A DNA stretch of 64,000 nucleotides, taken from Nitrospirota bacterium (lineage in GTDB: Bacteria; JACPQY01). The notes under the pieces are model-generated. The model searched no databases. It was not told where the DNA came from and saw only the letters and a program-made list of their open reading frames with translations. Location of the stretch: the NCBI GenBank assembly GCA_016180645.1, contig JACPAV010000002.1:300628-364627 (forward strand), in the 5' to 3' direction. The position numbers and the translations under genes were made by a program. Below are positions 19,126-29,347 of the stretch, piece by piece (the first letter of the stretch is position 1; each line of letters opens with the position of its first letter).

Positions 19126-20256
19126 ATGATTTACCTTGACCACAACGCCACAACGCCCGTGTTGCCGGAGGTACTTGAGACGATGATGCCCTACTTCACC
19201 AAGGAATGGGGCAACCCCTCCAGCAGCTACAAATTCGGATCCAAATTGAAAACCGTGATCGAGCAGGCGCGGGAGCAGGTAGCTCAACTGATAGGCGCGC
19301 ACCCAATGGAAATCATCTTCACCTCGTGCGCCACGGAGAGCAACAACGCGGCGATCCATGCAGTGCTCAAAGCCAATCCGGGCAAGCGGCACATCATCAC
19401 GTCATCTGTGGAACATTCGTCGGTGCTCAACTACTGCAAGGCACTGGAGAAGGATGGTTATCGCGTCACGTATCTGCCGGTGGATCGCGAAGGGCTGATG
19501 AAGCCGGCGGATTTGGAGACTGCGATCACCGGCGAAACGGCCATCGTCTCATTGATGTGGGCGAACAACGAGACGGGGGTGCTGTATCCGGTGAAAGAAA
19601 TCGCGGAGATTTGCCGGTCCCGCGGGGTATTCTTCCACTGTGATGCGGTGCAGGCAGCGGGCAAAGTGGAAATCGACGCACGAAAAGCGCCCTTAGACTT
19701 CCTTTCACTGACAGGCCACAAATTTCATGCGCCGAAGGGCATCGGGGCGTTGTACATCCGCCGAAAGGCGCCGTTTTCACCTCTCATCGTTGGTGGGCAT
19801 CAGGAGCGACGTCTGCGCGGGGGAACCGAGAGCGTCCCGTTGATCGTTGGGATGGGCAAGGCGGCGGAGTTGGTGGGCAAGAGTCTGCCCGCCTACGACA
19901 AGAGAGTCGGGCCGTTGCGTGATGCGTTGGAGGCCGGGATCCTTGGGTCAATTCCTTACGGGGAATTGAATGGGCATAAGACCTTCCGTTTGGCGAATAC
20001 CACCAACCTCACATTCAGAGGAATCGAATCGGAGGCTTTGCTTTTGCTGCTCGATCAGGAGGGAATATGTGCCTCATCGGGATCGGCCTGCCTTGCCGGG
20101 TCGGACGAACCTTCGCACGTCGTCAAGGCCATGAAGCCCGATTCCTCCGCTTCCCGTCAGATGATCCGATTTTCGCTGGCCCCTTCGAATACGTCCGATG
20201 AGGTATCGGCAGCCGTCGGGGCCGTGCTCCACGCTGTCACCGATTTGCGGGGCTGA
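19126..20256 (+). CDS. Cysteine desulfurase (NifS/IscS family)
   Basis: This PLP enzyme takes sulfur from cysteine as a persulfide for Fe-S clusters, tRNA thiolation or DNA phosphorothioation. It is 376 residues: MIYLDHNATTPV, GHKFHAPKG with the PLP lysine K199, RGGTESVPLIVGMG, and the persulfide cysteine C322 in SSGSACLAG. The long loop around SSGSACxxG is that of the NifS/IscS group. No IscU, suf or thiI gene lies beside it. It is followed 10 nt later by the DUF6883/DUF4926 pair. Because the dnd operon lacks dndA, this enzyme is a candidate sulfur donor for DndC; that is inference. Confidence 0.92.
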   Translation: MIYLDHNATTPVLPEVLETMMPYFTKEWGNPSSSYKFGSKLKTVIEQAREQVAQLIGAHPMEIIFTSCATESNNAAIHAVLKANPGKRHIITSSVEHSSVLNYCKALEKDGYRVTYLPVDREGLMKPADLETAITGETAIVSLMWANNETGVLYPVKEIAEICRSRGVFFHCDAVQAAGKVEIDARKAPLDFLSLTGHKFHAPKGIGALYIRRKAPFSPLIVGGHQERRLRGGTESVPLIVGMGKAAELVGKSLPAYDKRVGPLRDALEAGILGSIPYGELNGHKTFRLANTTNLTFRGIESEALLLLLDQEGICASSGSACLAGSDEPSHVVKAMKPDSSASRQMIRFSLAPSNTSDEVSAAVGAVLHAVTDLRG

Positions 20257-20266
20257 CTTCTCTCTC

Positions 20267-20599
20267 ATGAAACTTCCGGCGGACACGGTGATCGCCCCCG
20301 AGAAGGTGACGCGATACCTGCTTGTACAGTATGCCCGTGGCGACAAGTCAAAGTTTCTGGCGGCGGCAGGCTATTCTCTCGAAGACCCTGACAGGCTCCT
20401 CCACGATCTCCGCGCGCAGATTCTCCCGTTGGAGGCAACGGCCGTGGAATCGAATCAGTTCGGGGAATATTTTGAAATCCGAGGCACGCTGACCGGCCCC
20501 AACGGCGTAACGTTGGCTATCCGAACCATCTGGCTCAAGGAACGTTTGTCCGGCGCCACGAAATTCGTTACACTAATTCCAGACAGGCGGAAAAAATGA
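20267..20599 (+). CDS. DUF6883-family small protein, copy 2 of 2
   Basis: The product is 110 residues, MKLPADTVIAPEKVTRYLL, paralogous to the protein at 5597-5923. I use the ATG at 20267; an earlier in-frame start at 20198 would lie inside the cysteine desulfurase gene. Shared blocks are GDKSKFLAAAGYSLEDPDRL, ILPLEA, EIRGTLTGPNG and TKFVTLIPD. It begins 10 nt after the desulfurase stop, suggesting cotranscription. The stop overlaps the DUF4926 start by 4 nt. Confidence 0.75.
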   Translation: MKLPADTVIAPEKVTRYLLVQYARGDKSKFLAAAGYSLEDPDRLLHDLRAQILPLEATAVESNQFGEYFEIRGTLTGPNGVTLAIRTIWLKERLSGATKFVTLIPDRRKK

Positions 20600-20838
20600 C
20601 GGAATTGACATTGTACAGAGATGCCGTGCTCACGGCCGACCTGCCCAAGCATGGCCTCAGGCGTGGCGATATCGTCAAATTGGTGGACCACCATGTTGCT
20701 CCAGATGGGACGGAGGGTTACTCCATCGAGGTGTTCAATGCCGTGGGCGACACCATCGCCGTCACCGCCGTTCCAGCCGCTTCGCTCGAACCCCTAAGCG
20801 AGAACGAAATCCTCTGCGTCCGCCCCCTCGCCGCGTAA
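20596..20838 (+). CDS. DUF4926-family small protein, copy 2 of 2
   Basis: The product is 80 residues: MTELTLYRDAVLTADLPKHG, then GLRRGDIVKLVDHH, GYSIEVFNAVGDTIAVTAV and the ending CVRPLAA. It is the paralogue of 5920-6162 and has the same ATGA coupling to its DUF6883 partner. The conserved pairing, order and overlap in two places support a two-component module in which this may be the neutralising partner. Confidence 0.75.
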   Translation: MTELTLYRDAVLTADLPKHGLRRGDIVKLVDHHVAPDGTEGYSIEVFNAVGDTIAVTAVPAASLEPLSENEILCVRPLAA

Positions 20839-21164: not shown

Positions 21165-21443
21165 TTGTACAAGGTCGAATTCCTCGAGGAAGCCGCACAG
21201 GACTGGCTTGACCTCGATCATTCCGTCCGCAAGAGACTTTTCGCGGCCATTGAACGATTGAGGTCGCATCCCGATCTGTACGGGAAACCTCTCGCCCAGC
21301 CTCTCCACCGTCTGCGACGCATCCGAAGCGGCGACTTCCGAATCGTCTACAGGGTGAACGAAGGAACCAAGACGGTCGAAGTTGGAGTCGTCTGCCACAG
21401 ATCGCAGGTCTACCAAATCGCCCTCCGTCGCCGGCTCGTCTGA
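21165..21443 (+). CDS. RelE/ParE-family toxin
   Basis: The product is 92 residues with a TTG start, MYKVEFLEEAAQDWLDLDHS, then FAAIERLRSHPDLYGKPL, LHRLRRIRSGDFRIVYRV and VGVVCHRSQVY. This is the mRNA-interferase/gyrase-toxin fold with the typical R.R.G.FRI.Y strand and terminal RSxVY. The start is 2 nt after the antitoxin stop, so the pair is one operon. It converges with the dnd operon. Confidence 0.8.
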   Translation: MYKVEFLEEAAQDWLDLDHSVRKRLFAAIERLRSHPDLYGKPLAQPLHRLRRIRSGDFRIVYRVNEGTKTVEVGVVCHRSQVYQIALRRRLV

Positions 21444-21852: not shown

Positions 21853-22851
21853 TCAGGGAAATAGCACCTCCGAAAAGGATGGGAAGTATCGATACACCTC
21901 CGCATATCTCTTGACATCCGATTCAGGCACGCCGGGCACGCGCAGTTTTCCTGAGGATATCTTGGGCAACTGCGAGTTAAGATGACGAATTTCTTTCGGC
22001 GTCAGACAGGGCGCCTTTATGTGGCAAGGATCGGAACTGGCGCGAATGAACGGCAACGTATCAAAGTTGCACTCTAGGAATTTCTGCTCCTCTTCCGCAC
22101 GGAAAAAGATTCCACCGACCGTAACCATCTGGGCTCCATCCTTGTAGCGGAAGTGAAATAGTTGCCGATATTGGACCTTTTCATTCAGCGGAAGCATTGA
22201 ATTTCGCAAAGATATTTGCTCGGAAATTACGTTATCAATGACCTTGCGAAACACGCTAGCAAGCCCTTGACCACGCAAGTCAGTTCCAGAAGTGCCAGCC
22301 GGCAGTTGCCCCCCCAAAAGCTCCTTGGCGATACGCAGGCGATACTCGTCGAGATCGAACGTTTTGCCAGTTTCCTTTTCATACGTTTCGCGATCCTCCT
22401 TGGCTGGCTCGGCGTCTGGGTGTGCGTTTACGGTGACTACCAACGAACTGCCGCTGGCCGCACGCAGACAGACGGTTGCGATATCCCCCAATATTCCAGT
22501 ATCAAGACGATTCTCGTAGTCCAACCATGCGATGGTGCGACGCCGCCAGTCTATTGTAGGCAGAACCTCACCAGAGTTTGCAAACTTCAATTGTATGCAC
22601 CGGTAAGGGCGGTTGAATCGGAAGCAGGCTCTCGACGACGTTTCTTTTTCAATACTCAGCATGTTGGTTATGCCGAGTTCGCGATGGAGGAGTTGGAAAT
22701 CGCTGAAGTAGATGGAGCCAAATCCCACGTAGCGGTATTCCTGAATCCGCTGGAAGGGATGCAGACGTTCGAACGCCGCACACAGCATCCTCCGTTCAAT
22801 CGCCTTTCCCGGACGCAGTGCATAGTTGATGATTCGGAAGCTGTCCGACAC
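21853..22851 (-). CDS. Methyltransferase-like protein, last gene of the dnd operon
   Basis: This is a 332-residue protein with a GTG start that overlaps the GHKL stop by one base. The segment YRYVGFGSIYFSDFQLLHRE, then LGITNMLSIEKE, resembles the first and second strands of a Rossmann-type methyltransferase (a VGFGS loop and an acidic strand end), but no clear catalytic motif such as NPPY is present. Further parts (TIAWLDYENRLD, GDIATVCLR, SSLVVTVNAHPD) fit later strands. I recall similar proteins annotated as O-methyltransferase-like. The role is unknown; its position suggests a dnd accessory or restriction function. It is visibly less GC-rich than dndC/dndD. Confidence 0.6.
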   Translation of the reverse strand: MSDSFRIINYALRPGKAIERRMLCAAFERLHPFQRIQEYRYVGFGSIYFSDFQLLHRELGITNMLSIEKETSSRACFRFNRPYRCIQLKFANSGEVLPTIDWRRRTIAWLDYENRLDTGILGDIATVCLRAASGSSLVVTVNAHPDAEPAKEDRETYEKETGKTFDLDEYRLRIAKELLGGQLPAGTSGTDLRGQGLASVFRKVIDNVISEQISLRNSMLPLNEKVQYRQLFHFRYKDGAQMVTVGGIFFRAEEEQKFLECNFDTLPFIRASSDPCHIKAPCLTPKEIRHLNSQLPKISSGKLRVPGVPESDVKRYAEVYRYFPSFSEVLFP

Positions 22852-24215
22852 TATTCTTCCCCTTCGGCTTCGTAGCGCATGAAATATTCGAACGTTTTCT
22901 CCCCAACGCCAGTGAAGGTTTTCGATTTAAGAATCAGCTTGGCTCTCTCAACCTCACTCGCAGGCTTCCAGTATTGAATTCTACACATTCTCGGCCCGGC
23001 AGCGGCGGGAGCCATTGACGGAGCTACGAAATTACCCCCACGCTTAATCATGTTGACCTGTTTCGAGTCGGCGGTCTCGATTGCATTTTCGAGGGGATGT
23101 TGGCCCTCACCGGCAGTCTTTTCCTTGACAAGATTAGTTAGAAAAGTCAGTACCGGCCTGGTCATCTCGATCATCTCGCGCTGGACAGCCTTGTAGACGG
23201 GGGAGTCGGCGTCCACTCCGGTTTTCGTCGTTGTCCAAGGCAGCAAAGAACCATCATCAGAGTCGAGATAAGCGTAGCCACGAAAATAGGCAAAATCAGG
23301 ATGGTATGCCCGCATGTTGTGACGATTCCCCCAGACTGTTGCGTCTGATTGGTCGGCGCGCAATATTAGGCGTCCGTTGCAGAAGACATACCAGCCGCCA
23401 TCGTGGAAGCTACGCTCCGCAACGCCAGCATATAGCCTTACTCGCACCGGCGGGCCCGGCTTACCTACGAGTATTTTGCTCGGATAAGACTTCTCCACAT
23501 AGCCGGGCTGCAACATCTTCGAAACAAAAAGCTCCTGCGGATCATGCTTGATCGGCAGACCGTTCAAGGTGATGGCAAGCTCGCGATCCAAAGTTAAGGG
23601 GTGAGCTTGGCTCATCTCCTCTGCAAGCCTGCTCTTAAAGTTATCCAATGCGAAAGTATCCGCAACATTCGCCAGGAGCCGGTCGACCTCGATGCGCGTG
23701 CCGGTGTCCTTCTCCGGAACGTGCAAACCAGTCTCTAGTTCACTGAAAGTGAAGTGCCACTCCTCGGGAGATTGGGCATCAGCCATCCATTGATCCACAT
23801 CGACATCCACCGTGAATCGCGCCTCCCTTGTTGTCGAGCGCACGACAAAATGGCGTCCAAGCCTAAAGAAGGTCCGCTTCATGCCTACTCCGAACTGTCC
23901 CATTGAGCCAGGGGTGCCCTCAGTTTCTTCTGGCCGCCCAAAGCGAAATGCGTAGCCGCGTGCGACATCAACGGGAATTCCGCCACAGTTATCGGCAATG
24001 AGAAAATGCCTAGCATCCAGTTTCATTTCCACCCTTAGCCCGCCATAGTTGCCAGCGGGACGAAGTCTCCGTGCTCCGTCCACCGAATTATCTACGAGAT
24101 CAAGAATGGCTCGCGTTAGCGGGATGTCCCTTGTGAGCATGTGAATGAAGAATTCCTTTGTTGGAGACGCATTGATGAGCTTCTGCCCACCTTGGGAGGA
24201 TGAAGTAGGTGCCAT
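22851..24215 (-). CDS. GHKL (Hsp90/MORC-like) ATPase of the dnd operon
   Basis: The product is 454 residues. The ATP-binding motifs are an N-box at residues 38-47 (DLVDNSVDGA), G1 at 75-79 (IADNCGGIP) and G2 at 106-113 (GQFGVGMKR). This is the GHKL fold of Hsp90, MutL and MORC. The start was set at the ATG 24215, which has GGGGGGAGG 8 nt upstream; the frame is open further but would overlap the previous gene. It starts 4 nt after the HerA stop and its own stop overlaps the next gene. MORC/GHKL ATPases occur in other defence systems; here it probably acts with the HerA and methyltransferase-like neighbours. Confidence 0.8.
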   Translation of the reverse strand: MAPTSSSQGGQKLINASPTKEFFIHMLTRDIPLTRAILDLVDNSVDGARRLRPAGNYGGLRVEMKLDARHFLIADNCGGIPVDVARGYAFRFGRPEETEGTPGSMGQFGVGMKRTFFRLGRHFVVRSTTREARFTVDVDVDQWMADAQSPEEWHFTFSELETGLHVPEKDTGTRIEVDRLLANVADTFALDNFKSRLAEEMSQAHPLTLDRELAITLNGLPIKHDPQELFVSKMLQPGYVEKSYPSKILVGKPGPPVRVRLYAGVAERSFHDGGWYVFCNGRLILRADQSDATVWGNRHNMRAYHPDFAYFRGYAYLDSDDGSLLPWTTTKTGVDADSPVYKAVQREMIEMTRPVLTFLTNLVKEKTAGEGQHPLENAIETADSKQVNMIKRGGNFVAPSMAPAAAGPRMCRIQYWKPASEVERAKLILKSKTFTGVGEKTFEYFMRYEAEGEE

Positions 24216-24219
24216 GCGT

Positions 24220-25701
24220 CTACCTCCCCCCATCACGCCAGAATTGGCGGGCTGGGCCGGTGATGAGCTTGCCTTGCAAGCGCAGAGCGGCTTCGGCTTT
24301 CGTGAGTTTCTGATGAACCACACCGCCGAGGATCATTCGTTGTTCGGCGTCTTTCAGCGTGTGCGGCGAGAAGTGGGCTCCGCATTCGGCCAACTCGGCG
24401 AAATTGGTATCGTTGGCGCCCGGCGTCAGGAATTTATCGGCGTCCTGCGAAGCCAGCCAGACGGGGAAGCCCCATGATCGACCCTGCCTCGCGAGCAGGC
24501 TCAGCAGGCCGGCCTTGCTCTCCTTCGGCAGAATCAGATGCGCTTCATCCACAAATAGCACCATCTTGAGAGGCTGGATGTCATTCTTCACGGCCAGTTG
24601 CCGGCTCAATTTCTTGATGAGGAAGTTCAGAATGAGGGCGGCCGACAATGCCTTCGTATCGTTGTCCGTCCCGAACTCCTTGAAATCGATGACCAGGGAA
24701 CCATTCAACCATTCCTCCGGGGTGATCGCGGTCCGGGCGGAGGCGAACAGATTGAACCGCTCGATCTTTTGAACGATGCGCTGTTCAACACCCTCCGTGC
24801 CGCTGTTCACGAGCTCCGCCGACAAGGACGCGAAATCCGGTTCGGCGAGTCGCTGGTAGCAGTCGCTGAGATTGCCCTCCTGTCTAGCGCCGAGTTGCGG
24901 CGCGAAGCATCGGATAAGGCCCGCCATCTCGTAGGCAACCTGGGCATTCTGTGTTGGGTTCTGATGGCGGTAGAGTGGGTTGATCGGCAGGCTCTGCTGG
25001 ATCAGGCGGACATACCGCGCGCCGGTCTGTTCCAGGAAGCGCCTGCGATTCTCCGTCTGCCTTGCGTCCTTGGGATTGTCTTCAAGCTCGCCCTTCATGT
25101 CGAAAAACACGAAACGAACGCCACCATTCGCCGCTTGCGCCAGGAGGTCGAGCGCAAGCTGGCTCTTGCCGCTGCCGGGTTGACCGGAAATCACCAGCAA
25201 GCCGTTGTTCGTGCCCGGACCGTTTACCGACCATTCCGGACCGTCCGTCAATACTTTCAATTTCACTTCGGTCTCGACCACCGGCATCGGTCGAGCGACG
25301 GGCTCCGCGCCGGGAAGCCCAGACTCGCCACTCGCCAAACGCAAGAGAGACGCCACGAACCGGGCCTGATCGTTCCCCGATTCCGACCATATCTGCCCCA
25401 AGCGTTGGCAGCCAAACTCAAAGTGACGACGAAACTCCTGCCGGTACCCGGCTTCGTCGAGGGTCCGTCCGGCCCGGTGGTTCAATGCGGCGCGGACCAG
25501 ATCCCGGAGATCATCGCCGACAACCTGCTCGTCATTCAGCGTCACGCCTTTGGAGTCCTTGGGTTTGTACTCGGTGGGCACGCCCTGCCCCAGAGCGAGG
25601 AAGAGCGCCGCGCGTCCGACAATCGCCTGATTCCGCGCGCCGACGCGGGCAAAGACGTTCTCGATGAACTCGTGAGCTTCGCCGCTGGTCTCGAATTTCA
25701 T
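24220..25701 (-). CDS. DndE-like domain fused to a HerA/FtsK-type ATPase
   Basis: The product is 493 residues from the ATG at 25701 (ATGA overlap with the preceding gene). Residues 1-105 match the DndE pattern: GARNQAIVGRAALFLALGQG, then VTLNDEQVVGDDL and FRRHFEFGCQRLGQI, like the GxxxNxxxRxA and HxxxGxxxL marks of DndE. Residues 160-493 are a HerA/DUF87-type pump ATPase: Walker A GQPGSGKS at 173-180, FFDMKGELED, Walker B MVLFVDEAH at 380-388, and the ending KLITGPARQFWRDGG. DndE binds nicked DNA and is essential for phosphorothioation; HerA-type ATPases occur in the DndH/DptH restriction factor. A fusion would join modification and motor activity in one chain. Confidence 0.75.
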   Translation of the reverse strand: MKFETSGEAHEFIENVFARVGARNQAIVGRAALFLALGQGVPTEYKPKDSKGVTLNDEQVVGDDLRDLVRAALNHRAGRTLDEAGYRQEFRRHFEFGCQRLGQIWSESGNDQARFVASLLRLASGESGLPGAEPVARPMPVVETEVKLKVLTDGPEWSVNGPGTNNGLLVISGQPGSGKSQLALDLLAQAANGGVRFVFFDMKGELEDNPKDARQTENRRRFLEQTGARYVRLIQQSLPINPLYRHQNPTQNAQVAYEMAGLIRCFAPQLGARQEGNLSDCYQRLAEPDFASLSAELVNSGTEGVEQRIVQKIERFNLFASARTAITPEEWLNGSLVIDFKEFGTDNDTKALSAALILNFLIKKLSRQLAVKNDIQPLKMVLFVDEAHLILPKESKAGLLSLLARQGRSWGFPVWLASQDADKFLTPGANDTNFAELAECGAHFSPHTLKDAEQRMILGGVVHQKLTKAEAALRLQGKLITGPARQFWRDGGR

Positions 25702-25964
25702 GGGCCTTTTCCTTCCCGAACAAGCCGCTGCCCTGTGGGAGAGGCCCAAAAAGCTGCGAGAACGCCGTCGCGGAATTCTTCGTAAACCCCTCGATCAGCC
25801 TCAAGCATCTTGGCTGCCTTTCGCGCAGCGCGGCGAAACTCAGCCGCAGTTTGCCAGTCCAGCGTACTGTGAAATATCTCGTTGCGCATGATCTCTTCAA
25901 TCATCCCTGCGTCCACCGGACTGCAACCCGTAGCTTCGATGATGTCTTCAGCGTAGCCGCTCAT
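25698..25964 (-). CDS. Small conserved protein in the dnd operon
   Basis: The product is 88 residues, MSGYAEDIIEATGCSPVDAG, then MIEEIMRNEIFHSTLDWQTA. The EEIMRxxIFHSTLDWQ block is one I recall from small proteins on plasmids and accessory islands; no function is known to me. It is all helical by look. It lies between dndD (18 nt gap) and the dndE-herA gene (4-nt overlap), so it is made with them. It is not a DndE, since that domain is on the next gene. Confidence 0.7.
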   Translation of the reverse strand: MSGYAEDIIEATGCSPVDAGMIEEIMRNEIFHSTLDWQTAAEFRRAARKAAKMLEADRGVYEEFRDGVLAAFWASPTGQRLVREGKGP

Positions 25965-25982: not shown

Positions 25983-28046
25983 TTACAGGTCCTTTCCGAA
26001 GTAGTCGCTTGTGATGCGCACTTCGTAGTTCGGGCTGTCGGGTCTGCCATGCGGGTGCAACGTGTAGGCACGCGCAAACCGGCCACGGGCGCGGTCAAAC
26101 AGCGGTCCATCCGGATCAATCTCAGCATTCGTGCTGAGGATGATGGACTGGTGGCCGCTGAGGTAAAGCCGGTCGAGCACGTTGGCGCGGACTTCTTTGT
26201 CGAGGCGGGCCAGTGGCGTGTCCACAACCAGCGGCGGAACGAGCTTGGCCAGACGACGCAGGGCTTCGTAGAACGCCAGCATTCGCACCTGTCGCTGACC
26301 GGCGGACGTGTTCGTTTCCTCCCAGGTAACTTTCCTGCCATCCCGGCGCACGAGCCAGCATTGCCAATGGCCGTCAAAGTCCATGCCCTCGAACTCCCGC
26401 TCCCGCTCGGTAATTTCCACCCACAACTTGCCGACTTCCTCGGAGAGCTTCCGCCGCATCAGAATTGCGGCTCGGCTGCGAATCTCGCCGGCGGCCTCGC
26501 GGTAGCGGGTCGCCATCGCCGCCAAACTTTCGCCCCGCTTGGCACGTTCGGCAATTTCCGACTGCGTCGTCTCCTGGCGTTTCAGATCCACAAGCTCAAC
26601 CTCAAGACGCGCGATTTCGGCATCAATATCCTTCAGTCGTTTGGAGATTTGATCGCGGCGAGTGATGAGGCCGCCCCGCTTTTCGTGGAGTTCCACGCCT
26701 CGTTTGTACGCCGCCGTGTTTTGTTGCATCTGTCTCAGCTTCTGGTTCAACTCGCGTAGCTCAACGTCCATTCGGTCGATCTCCGCACACCTGTCCGATA
26801 GGTCGCGAATATCGCTCTGGTTCAGGGCAAGCTGTCGGCGAATCTGCGCACTCGTGTCGTTGCGGTCGGCAATGTAGATGCGGTCGGGCATCCCTTGCGG
26901 TGGTGGATGGAACAGGCTGTGGAGAGCGTCTTCCAATCGCTTCATGTAGAAGGATTCGACATCAGGTTGGAGCTCGAATTCCTTGGGAACACCACCAAAC
27001 ACGTCCTGCTTTACCTGCGGAATCTTCGGCTCGACCGTGGACTTGGCGCTTTCCCACTCGCGACGACGTTCCTCGGATAGCAAAGCGCCATGCAATTCCT
27101 TGCAGTAGACCCCAAGCAACGAGACCGGTAGAGCCAACTCCCAAGCTTCTGTGAGTCTGGCTTCGAGTTTGGCTTTGGCCCCTGTAAGTTCGCCGCGGCG
27201 TTCTTGAGCTCTCTGCAACTCATCGGGGTCGACTGCTCCAAGCGTTTTCAAGTCGTCTTCGACTTCAACCAGTTCGGCTTCGACTTCTTTCAAGTCGCGG
27301 TCAAGGGTTTCGCGTTCAAGATGTCTGACCTTCAAGTTGCCCTCCACAGTCCTCACCTTGCTGTTCAACTCGTTGAGGGTCGTCAATGGGTCAGGGCCGC
27401 CGGTGGAATTGAACACGCGTGGGATCTTCGAGCTGATCAGTTGACGGAGATCGTTTTCCAGTTCGGCATAGGCCTGAAGGCCAAGGATTCGACTCACGCC
27501 TTCAACGATGTCCTGCTGTCCCAAGTTGATGGCCTGGCTGCGCTCAGCATCGAAAAAGAAGAACCGCGCCAGATGGCGCGGCAGGAAAGCGTCCCGAAGT
27601 TTGTGTATCTCTTGTTCGTCTTGGATGGTGCCCGGCTTGTCGGACCGTGTGGCATGATGCTCCCAGACTGGCGCCGAGTTGGAGCGGAACCGCACTTGGC
27701 GAAGGATCTCCACTTTCCGACTGCCCACTTTGTCATCGCGGAGACTCACCACCGCCTTGAGACGCACTAAGTCTTTACCTTCAGACAGTGCATGCCGATT
27801 GAGCGACTTCTCGAAGGTGAACCGCGTCGCATCTGACCCAGTCTCCACCTTCTTCAAGTCGCCGACGCCGCTCTCGCCGACCACCGCAAGATATAGGGCG
27901 CGCAGCAGGTGAGTTTTTCCGGCACCATTCTTTCCGCCCACGATAACGCCACACTTGCCCTCAAGACTTCGGAAGTCAACGGTGTGCTCGCCGTAGAATG
28001 GCCCAAAGTTCTCCAGCGTTAGTGAGTCGATATGGACTTCCGCCAT
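25983..28046 (-). CDS. dndD: DNA sulfur modification protein DndD (SMC-like ATPase)
   Basis: The product is 687 residues. The N-terminal ATPase half has Walker A GGKNGAGKT at residues 37-45 after LENFGPFYGEHTVDF. A long central coiled coil follows (about 210-520). The C-terminal half has the signature-like TSAGQRQVRMLAFYEALRRL and Walker B PPLVVDTPLARLD, then HQSIILSTNAEID. This RecF/SMC-like layout at 650-700 residues is that of DndD, the ATPase thought to nick or open DNA for sulfur insertion. It starts 2 nt after dndC. Confidence 0.9.
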   Translation of the reverse strand: MAEVHIDSLTLENFGPFYGEHTVDFRSLEGKCGVIVGGKNGAGKTHLLRALYLAVVGESGVGDLKKVETGSDATRFTFEKSLNRHALSEGKDLVRLKAVVSLRDDKVGSRKVEILRQVRFRSNSAPVWEHHATRSDKPGTIQDEQEIHKLRDAFLPRHLARFFFFDAERSQAINLGQQDIVEGVSRILGLQAYAELENDLRQLISSKIPRVFNSTGGPDPLTTLNELNSKVRTVEGNLKVRHLERETLDRDLKEVEAELVEVEDDLKTLGAVDPDELQRAQERRGELTGAKAKLEARLTEAWELALPVSLLGVYCKELHGALLSEERRREWESAKSTVEPKIPQVKQDVFGGVPKEFELQPDVESFYMKRLEDALHSLFHPPPQGMPDRIYIADRNDTSAQIRRQLALNQSDIRDLSDRCAEIDRMDVELRELNQKLRQMQQNTAAYKRGVELHEKRGGLITRRDQISKRLKDIDAEIARLEVELVDLKRQETTQSEIAERAKRGESLAAMATRYREAAGEIRSRAAILMRRKLSEEVGKLWVEITEREREFEGMDFDGHWQCWLVRRDGRKVTWEETNTSAGQRQVRMLAFYEALRRLAKLVPPLVVDTPLARLDKEVRANVLDRLYLSGHQSIILSTNAEIDPDGPLFDRARGRFARAYTLHPHGRPDSPNYEVRITSDYFGKDL

Positions 28047-28048
28047 GA

Positions 28049-29347
28049 TTAGGCCTTCTTCTCTGCCTCCTGTTTCGCCAAATCGTCTTTCAAGATGAAG
28101 AGCAGATCGTCCGGGAGGCCGTGGGCGCGGTGGCTTTCGCTGTATTCCTCCACCTTGGCAAGCATCCGACGGAGCGTGTCGGTGTTGATCCCCTTTTCCC
28201 GGGCGATTTCGTCCTCCAGCTCCCGAAGTTTGTTGAGTTCCTTCAGATCCGTGCTCATCATGACACCTCGCTGTTTGTTGAGGATACGGGCGACGCCCCG
28301 GCCGTCATCGGGATCGCGCGCGGCCTTCCACATTTGTTGGATCAAGAGGAGCTCCTCGGAGGCTATAATGGGCAAACGGGTTTCCTCCTGCAACGCGAGC
28401 AATCGGGCCAGCAACTCACGCCGGGCCTCAATGTGCAAAGGCCCCGGGCCCTTGTCGCCATTCATCCGTTTCATGTCGCGCTTGCCGTTGGCGGGGTCGC
28501 GGTAGAACTGTAGGGTTTCTCGAAATTCGATGAGCTTCTCCATCCGCTCGTCGCCGGCGGCCAGCAGCCCCTCACTGGCTTTGTCGCGATCCACCACGGT
28601 GCAGGTCCAGCAGCCGAAGCGGGAGTTGCCGCAGCTTGGAGTGCTGGTGTCGATCTGAATGGGACATTCACCGTTGGAGGCGCTGGAGTAGAGTTTGTAT
28701 AGTGCGCGGTTGTCGCCACCCCAGGGGTTCGGCGTTTGGAGGAGATAGGCCCAAACTTCCTCGGTGGTCAGGTATTCGATTGGATTGGAGACCCACACGC
28801 GCGGCAGGTCCGGGTGACGGCGCAAGCCGTTGCGGGTCTCGATACCCGCCATTGTTTGCGCCCGAGTTGCGCTTTCCTCCCGCCGCGCCCCCAAATGCAG
28901 GATGGCATCGCCCCAGTGTCCTATCCGTTTCTTTACAAAGTCATTTACCGGATCTATCTTCATCCGCTGAGTACACCAACGAAAGGTGCGATTGGGAGGG
29001 GGGTATCCACGCCCGATGATGTTGACCCAGAACGATTGTTCGGCCGGGGGTTTCAGGAGGTGGGCTTCGAAGTTCAACTCGTTCTGGCTGGAGAACTTCC
29101 TCATTTTGTCGAGCGTGCCCTCTACCATCCCGACGATGGCCGGGATTTCCACGCGCGTGTCCGTACAGAGGAGATTGATCGGCTTCTTGCGATTTTCCCT
29201 GGGGATGGACGCGACCGCGTCGAAGAGGAGCGAGGCCAGCATGGTGCTGTCCTTCCCCCCGCTGAATCCGACGAGCCACGGACGAGGATCCTCGATGTAG
29301 AGGCGGCTGAGGGATTCGCGAATTTCTTGATATCCGCCGGTCACCAC
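28049..29347 (-). CDS. dndC: DNA phosphorothioation protein DndC (PAPS-reductase family)
   Basis: The product is 432 residues. The PP-loop SGGKDS is at residues 29-34 (VGFSGGKDSTMLASLL). Four cysteines fit the 4Fe-4S ligands of DndC: C125 (RWCTQRMK), C239, C246 and C249 (SCGNSRFGCWTC). The adenylating and iron-sulfur parts activate DNA for sulfur transfer from a cysteine desulfurase. It is the first gene of the operon. The start is GTG at 29347. No dndB repressor gene precedes it. Confidence 0.92.
   Translation of the reverse strand: MVTGGYQEIRESLSRLYIEDPRPWLVGFSGGKDSTMLASLLFDAVASIPRENRKKPINLLCTDTRVEIPAIVGMVEGTLDKMRKFSSQNELNFEAHLLKPPAEQSFWVNIIGRGYPPPNRTFRWCTQRMKIDPVNDFVKKRIGHWGDAILHLGARREESATRAQTMAGIETRNGLRRHPDLPRVWVSNPIEYLTTEEVWAYLLQTPNPWGGDNRALYKLYSSASNGECPIQIDTSTPSCGNSRFGCWTCTVVDRDKASEGLLAAGDERMEKLIEFRETLQFYRDPANGKRDMKRMNGDKGPGPLHIEARRELLARLLALQEETRLPIIASEELLLIQQMWKAARDPDDGRGVARILNKQRGVMMSTDLKELNKLRELEDEIAREKGINTDTLRRMLAKVEEYSESHRAHGLPDDLLFILKDDLAKQEAEKKA

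Follow-up and report, generated by a model that had tools for sequence, protein, structure and literature searches.

Does the 493-residue protein encoded at 24220-25701 on the minus strand of the window (the whole 64,000-nucleotide stretch of DNA analysed here) join a DndE domain to a HerA-type ATPase, and what might such a motor do in a DNA sulfur-modification operon? The reading frame is intact in the sequence: it begins with an ATG at 25701, which overlaps the stop codon of the upstream ORF as ATGA, and ends with a TAG at 24222-24220. The gene order on the minus strand is dndC, dndD, a small ORF, dndE-herA, a GHKL ATPase and a methyltransferase, with neighbouring genes overlapping or separated by a few to about 20 bases. 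The dndD gene lies 281 bases upstream, separated from the fusion by the one small ORF, and the likely start of the GHKL ATPase is an ATG at 24215, behind GGGGGAGG and 4 bases past the fusion stop. The features are as follows.

28049..29347, minus strand: DndC sulfurtransferase, 432 residues (TIGR03183, 375 bits against a cut-off of 290)
25983..28046, minus strand: DndD-type coiled-coil ABC ATPase, 687 residues (PADLOC DndD, 3e-60), without a CxC zinc hook
25698..25964, minus strand: small ORF, 88 residues, between dndD and dndE-herA, in ATGA overlap with the fusion start
24220..25701, minus strand: DndE-HerA fusion, 493 residues, composed of DndE domain, linker and HerA/FtsK-type ATPase
25366-25701, minus strand: DndE domain of the fusion, residues 1 to about 112
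Fusion residues about 113-143: linker, of low model confidence (residues 125-151 by the structure comparison)
Fusion residues about 144-493: HerA/FtsK-type ATPase
22851..24215, minus strand: GHKL (HATPase_c_3) ATPase, 454 residues (Pfam, 9.9e-9)
21853..22851, minus strand: Methyltransf_35 protein (PF20553; Pfam, 9.6e-103), a Rossmann-fold SAM methyltransferase by its model
19126..20256, plus strand, opposite to the operon: dndA/IscS-type cysteine desulfurase (PADLOC DndA, 3e-145)

The fusion had been assigned to a sulfur-modification operon, and profile matches to DndC, DndD and dndA bear this out. With DndC, which keeps the PP-loop SGGKDS and four clustered cysteines, DndD, DndE and a cysteine desulfurase, the gene set for Dnd phosphorothioation is complete, and dndA accompanies the operon in most relatives that have enough flanking sequence. 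The DndD-type ATPase scores nearly level with PADLOC PbeC (1.6e-59) and stays under the cut-off of TIGR03185 (162 against 245.85 bits); an ABC partner with a zinc hook is ruled out, as none of 13 sequences carries the CxC. The product of the small ORF has no match in Pfam, PADLOC or NCBIfam, and its relatives occupy the same position in loci L006, L010 and L020 only. The locus is best explained as a phosphorothioation (sulfur-tagging) operon in which DndE, the subunit that recognises DNA, is covalently joined to a predicted dsDNA motor of HerA/FtsK type. On the other strand, genes for DUF6883 and DUF4926 proteins follow directly after dndA (20198-20838, plus strand), and since related pairs recur in L004, L008, L015, L028 and L035 they seem to accompany dndA repeatedly. 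A 92-residue ORF near the island (21165-21443, plus strand) reads like a RelE/ParE-type toxin.

The N-terminal domain matches Pfam DndE (PF08870) at 1.4e-6 with 29.0 bits, above the cut-off of 25, over profile positions 2-103 of 111; the hmmscan query was a mechanical ORF of 509 residues, offset by +16 relative to the 493-residue protein. The score against TIGR03184, the NCBI equivalog of stand-alone DndE, is 16.8 bits and far under the cut-off of 71.85, and the domain is therefore a divergent homologue rather than that equivalog. A sequence profile of this domain alone matched no solved DndE, and the profile of the whole fusion reaches the DndE structure 7x4e at E 0.23 only. In the reverse direction, we built a profile from nothing but the N-terminal domains of 28 fusions, and it picked up 19 of the 19 stand-alone DndE ORFs taken from other loci, at E-values no worse than 4e-7 in this small sequence set. 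The AlphaFold2 model of the fusion, for which a 17-row alignment (A1) was the input, is only moderate overall (mean pLDDT 70.8, with the linker and the C-terminus below 50), and its DndE part reaches 76-92 by ten-residue block. Residues 1-112 superimpose by VIA-align on DndE 7x4e with Z 13.7 (rmsd 2.2, 107 aligned) and on DndE 4lrv with Z 10.9. The modelled secondary structure (E2-4 H7-16 H25-39 / E54-56 H57-61 H66-77 H83-107 H112-123) corresponds to two tandem RHH units, that is strand-helix-helix twice, with a long last helix and a C-terminal helical extension.

The original prediction of a DndE domain at the N-terminus thus stands on 29.0 against 25 bits for PF08870 and Z 13.7 to 7x4e; profile and structure searches, which it had set beforehand as its own refuter, both matched. 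Of the two sequence marks it had relied on, HxxxGxxxL is present in the last helix (residues 93-101, H93 to L101), as it is in 18 of the 19 stand-alone DndEs. GxxxNxxxRxA is absent, the fusion reading GxxNxxxxxRxA with only RxA kept. Because the strict form occurs in just 5 of the 19 stand-alone DndEs, this motif does not define DndE, and we rejected it as evidence, missing as it is from the fusion and rare in the stand-alone proteins. The identity of the domain rests on comparison of the predicted structure, on Pfam and on the reciprocal profiles. That the operon has no separate dndE extends to the whole genome (4.7 Mb, 97% complete), in which the single PF08870 match is this fusion.

The remainder of the protein is, as predicted, a HerA-type ATPase. 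It matches Pfam AAA_10 (hmmscan, 1.5e-7) and the PADLOC motor profiles HerA, DndH and mad8, of which MADS mad8 is the best (2.5e-17). Walker A (G173-S180, GQPGSGKS) and Walker B (residues 381-386, VLFVDE) are in place, and K179, D385/E386, R405/R408 and Q419 are invariant in an alignment of 17 fusions down to 25% identity. These residues are the active HerA/FtsK set named in the main text of PMC10853773, which includes the sensor glutamine and an upstream arginine finger. The N-terminal HAS-barrel of HerA proper is missing from the model, and the DndE domain occupies its position. We regard it as supported that the motor is of HerA type with a full set of catalytic residues; ATPase and translocation activity are predicted. 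That the join is a sequencing error or a non-functional remnant is scarcely credible in view of this conservation, even though many of the source genomes are metagenome bins and one locus, L013, holds a broken copy of the fusion. The unbroken architecture recurs in 16 other loci and in independent genomes that include complete plasmid records of the FtsK type, and a sequencing artefact is ruled out by the conserved ORF in independent assemblies.

Among solved chains the closest relative of the motor is the C-terminal domain of DptH/DndH (7es4), which comes first in the alignment-profile search (1.7e-15) and in Foldseek (3.6e-10) and onto which residues 144-486 superimpose with Z 24.7, as compared to Z 16.3 for HerA 4d2i (both by VIA-align). 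DndH is a restriction protein and not a modification enzyme, and this counts against the reading that we prefer below, in which the motor takes part in modification. It favours instead a restriction role, in which the DndE half would read sites or whether these carry sulfur, the HerA half intercepting or translocating foreign DNA as the DndH motor does; we consider this possible but doubtful. DndH and DndB have no match anywhere in the genome of the window, so that some other part would have to restrict if the operon is a defence; at the same time we recognised no nuclease domain among the genes of the window operon.

How common, then, is the joining of DndE to a motor? A genome scan with the DndC of the window as query gave 41 loci in several phyla, 16 of them with an intact fusion; by annotation, the genomes of these 16 belong to Nitrospirota, Verrucomicrobiota, Acidobacteriota, Myxococcota and further groups. 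Just 2 of 40 scanned genomes also had a short frame for a stand-alone DndE. Most loci come from metagenome bins, and some of these are probably mis-binned (L013, labelled Klebsiella, and L040, labelled Limnohabitans). In a separate survey, which drew evenly from four phyla and left out the seed genomes, 14 DndE genes were motor fusions and 18 stood alone; the motors were checked by Pfam, alignment or tree, and three hits (G194, G171, G759) were left uncounted. The sampled phyla were chosen for holding fusions, and about 14 of 32 should therefore not be read as a global rate, yet it contradicts the earlier view that DndE is normally a separate protein. Of the surveyed fusions encoded near DndD, some have a HerA motor and others an FtsK motor, which suggests that selection acts on the pairing itself. 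All 8 sampled Pseudomonadota fusions carry an FtsK-type motor, with FtsK_alpha and FtsK_SpoIIIE in the three that were checked by Pfam, and in complete plasmid records DndE fusions annotated as FtsK lie beside dndD or a second ABC ATPase. In the motor tree FtsK-type and HerA-type motors separate at 100/100 on a long branch. The Pseudomonadota motors and this tree therefore indicate at least two captures of a motor, by what may have been either repeated fusion or one fusion followed by motor replacement, as far as the trees can tell. In the DndE tree the fused domains and five stand-alone DndEs are split from 14 stand-alone ones at 99/98. No hidden HerA motor, as gene fission might leave, was found beside stand-alone DndEs in loci of about 3.3 kb. 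The window protein had no match in plasmid and phage collections or viral contigs, and of the two genomes searched in its own order and phylum the other one lacks a copy.

Some loci of this sample show arrangements of their own. A Mesorhizobium amorphae plasmid (L095:3111-9488) has two ABC ATPase genes in a single Dnd cluster, arranged as tandem modules: a stand-alone DndE comes after one of them and a DndE-FtsK fusion after the other. In L014 (7467-8453) a HARE-HTH plus Mrr-type restriction endonuclease is encoded between dndD and dndE-herA, and in L085 (1492-3321) an ATPase that looks like GHKL when its sequence is read directly follows a stand-alone DndE from Bacteroidota, one that belongs to the fusion-rich clade.

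But why would DndE be tied to a ring motor? Free DndE binds the DndD coiled coil in pull-downs, and DndCDE is thought, partly by prediction, to encircle DNA (PMC12193691). The preference of DndE for nicks, on which the original prediction had built, was measured in vitro (PMC9239217) and stands as a binding property; its role is contested, since the main text of PMC10853773 makes the case that DndE, built of two RHH units, serves to recognise sites and has no catalytic residues. We favour, at slightly less than even chances, the explanation that the motor joined to DndE moves DNA during sulfur modification. The motor half would form a ring, and the DndE half may dock it on the DndD coiled coil as free DndE does; ATP-driven movement of DNA could then feed target sites past DndE and DndC, and sulfur insertion would take place as the complex scans or pumps the DNA. 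This mechanism, which puts modification and pumping on a single particle, is the best that we can propose and is inferred throughout. It starts from what sequences and models do establish: both domains are there, the ATPase residues are intact, the gene belongs to the operon, and the fusion is conserved across phyla and co-evolves with DndC and DndD. In other systems a stand-alone DndE is enough for modification, and the motor may therefore act at a different step. It might, for instance, assemble, load or remodel DndCDE on DNA without processive pumping, an improbable reading with which the absence of an adjacent motor gene from stand-alone DndEs of the same clade (L085-L087, L090) agrees, whereas the invariance of every catalytic residue of the motor, arginines included, and the capture of FtsK-type motors too, which are translocases elsewhere, speak against it.

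The genes downstream of the fusion bear on its partners. The GHKL and methyltransferase pair follows the fusion in the window and in L004, L006, L011, L020, L021, L022, L031 and L033, and DndB does so in L010, L013, L014, L015, L027, L028, L037 and L040. Where the downstream region is readable the two never occur together (Fisher p 4e-5, a descriptive value only, because the loci are related). By pairwise distances DndC, DndD and the fusion co-evolve closely (r 0.89-0.92, permutation p 0.0005 or less), fusion and DndD at r 0.92, and so do GHKL ATPase and methyltransferase (r 0.91); between these two blocks the coupling is looser (r 0.55-0.69). The GHKL protein (HATPase_c_3, 9.9e-9) has weak similarity to MORC2 (E 0.09), and the methyltransferase has invariant G43, G45, E68 and D111-Y112, is modelled as a class I SAM Rossmann fold and finds SAM methyltransferases as its top Foldseek matches. 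On a Microvirga terrae plasmid (L058:11971-14385) a GHKL and PF20553 pair lies inside a DISARM operon, in the order drmD, MmeI-like, GHKL, methyltransferase, drmA, DUF1998 protein, drmC; other GHKL relatives adjoin DptFGH, Vsr or Dam/Dcm genes, and a distant one, flanked by two Dam-type methyltransferases, adjoins dptF and dptG on a Natronorubrum aibiense plasmid (L061:3550-10784). The swap with DndB and the reuse in DISARM point to an undescribed accessory module of modification-based defences. Under the restriction reading, the pair or another nearby enzyme would be the effector and the fusion would link modification with defence, a doubtful proposal with which the company of DISARM, DptFGH, Vsr and Dam/Dcm is in keeping. 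Half of the fusion operons, however, have DndB instead, most of them also without an obvious nuclease, and the fusion co-evolves with DndC and DndD and less with the pair. If the motor instead acts in modification, as we prefer, the pair replacing DndB could serve the same complex as an added regulator or effector, either reading it or acting on it.

Beside dndC we also observed a protein of about 300 residues with an HNH_2 domain, right after or near the gene, in loci where DndD and DndE-HerA are missing or fragmentary (L003, L005, L007, L008, L013, L016, L019, L023, L024, L025, L030, L034, L035, L036, L039). Most of DndD is kept in 1 of 15 of these loci as compared to 19 of 22 without HNH_2 (Fisher p 1.5e-6, descriptive, some contigs ending early), and the association needs at least five switches on the DndC tree. 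The HNH_2 protein of L024 has an N-terminal match to the sulfur-binding domain 8h0l (1.3e-4). PT-dependent nucleases are rare beside dnd clusters (PMC7461809), and the pattern fits with this rarity.

The fusion, which covalently ties site recognition to a predicted ATP-driven DNA pump, bears on how the Dnd machinery finds and travels along DNA and on why only a small share of sites is modified, and the capture of different motors suggests a functional pairing of DndE with them. Walker A K179A offers a single-mutation handle on whether DNA translocation is required for phosphorothioation or for the use of phosphorothioation in defence. In a wider and rather speculative picture, DndE would have been captured repeatedly by ring motors, giving widespread one-particle machines that tag with sulfur and translocate without DndFGH, their DndB module swapped for the GHKL and methyltransferase pair shared with DISARM.

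How does this compare with known systems? With stand-alone DndE (E. coli B7A 4lrv, N. bangense 7x4e) the window protein shares the 112-residue fold, HxxxGxxxL and the adjacency to DndD, but it is fused to a motor, lies far below the NCBI cut-off and lacks the strict GxxxNxxxRxA. The C-terminal ATPase of DndH/DptH (7es4) is the best match of the motor by sequence profile and structure, whereas DndH, as described in the main text of PMC10853773, is a large restriction protein whose nuclease and TRD domains are absent from the fusion. HerA proper (4d2i and the defence HerAs) has the same RecA-like core and catalytic residues but a HAS-barrel where the fusion has DndE, and the partner genes NurA, SIR2 and DUF4297 were not recognised in the window operon. 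Although MADS mad8 is the best PADLOC profile for the motor, no other MADS gene was recognised there. Prokaryotic MORC and paraMORC proteins, which are GHKL proteins of restriction-modification operons (PMC2292703), resemble the product of the downstream gene in that this too is a GHKL ATPase of a DNA-modification operon, with a weak likeness to MORC2; Dnd and HerA do not come up in that paper. Finally, the DndE-HerA fusion is real and common, and it has been noted before: according to Rakesh, Aravind and Krishnan (2024; PMC10853773), DndE is joined to HerA/FtsK in some Dnd systems, and the fusion itself is thus not new. Theirs and ours share the one-polypeptide architecture, the adjoining DndD-related ABC ATPase and the Dnd modification system. 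Their main text names only HerA/FtsK clade 3, to which certain DndHs also belong, as fused to DndE, names neither fusions containing FtsK_alpha nor the GHKL and methyltransferase module, and makes no mention of GHKL, MORC or HATPase. FtsK-type fusions and the neighbouring pair therefore provisionally appear to be undescribed, and what we add, as far as searched, is the share of fusions (about 14 of 32 sampled), their FtsK motors and the alternation of the GHKL and methyltransferase pair with DndB.
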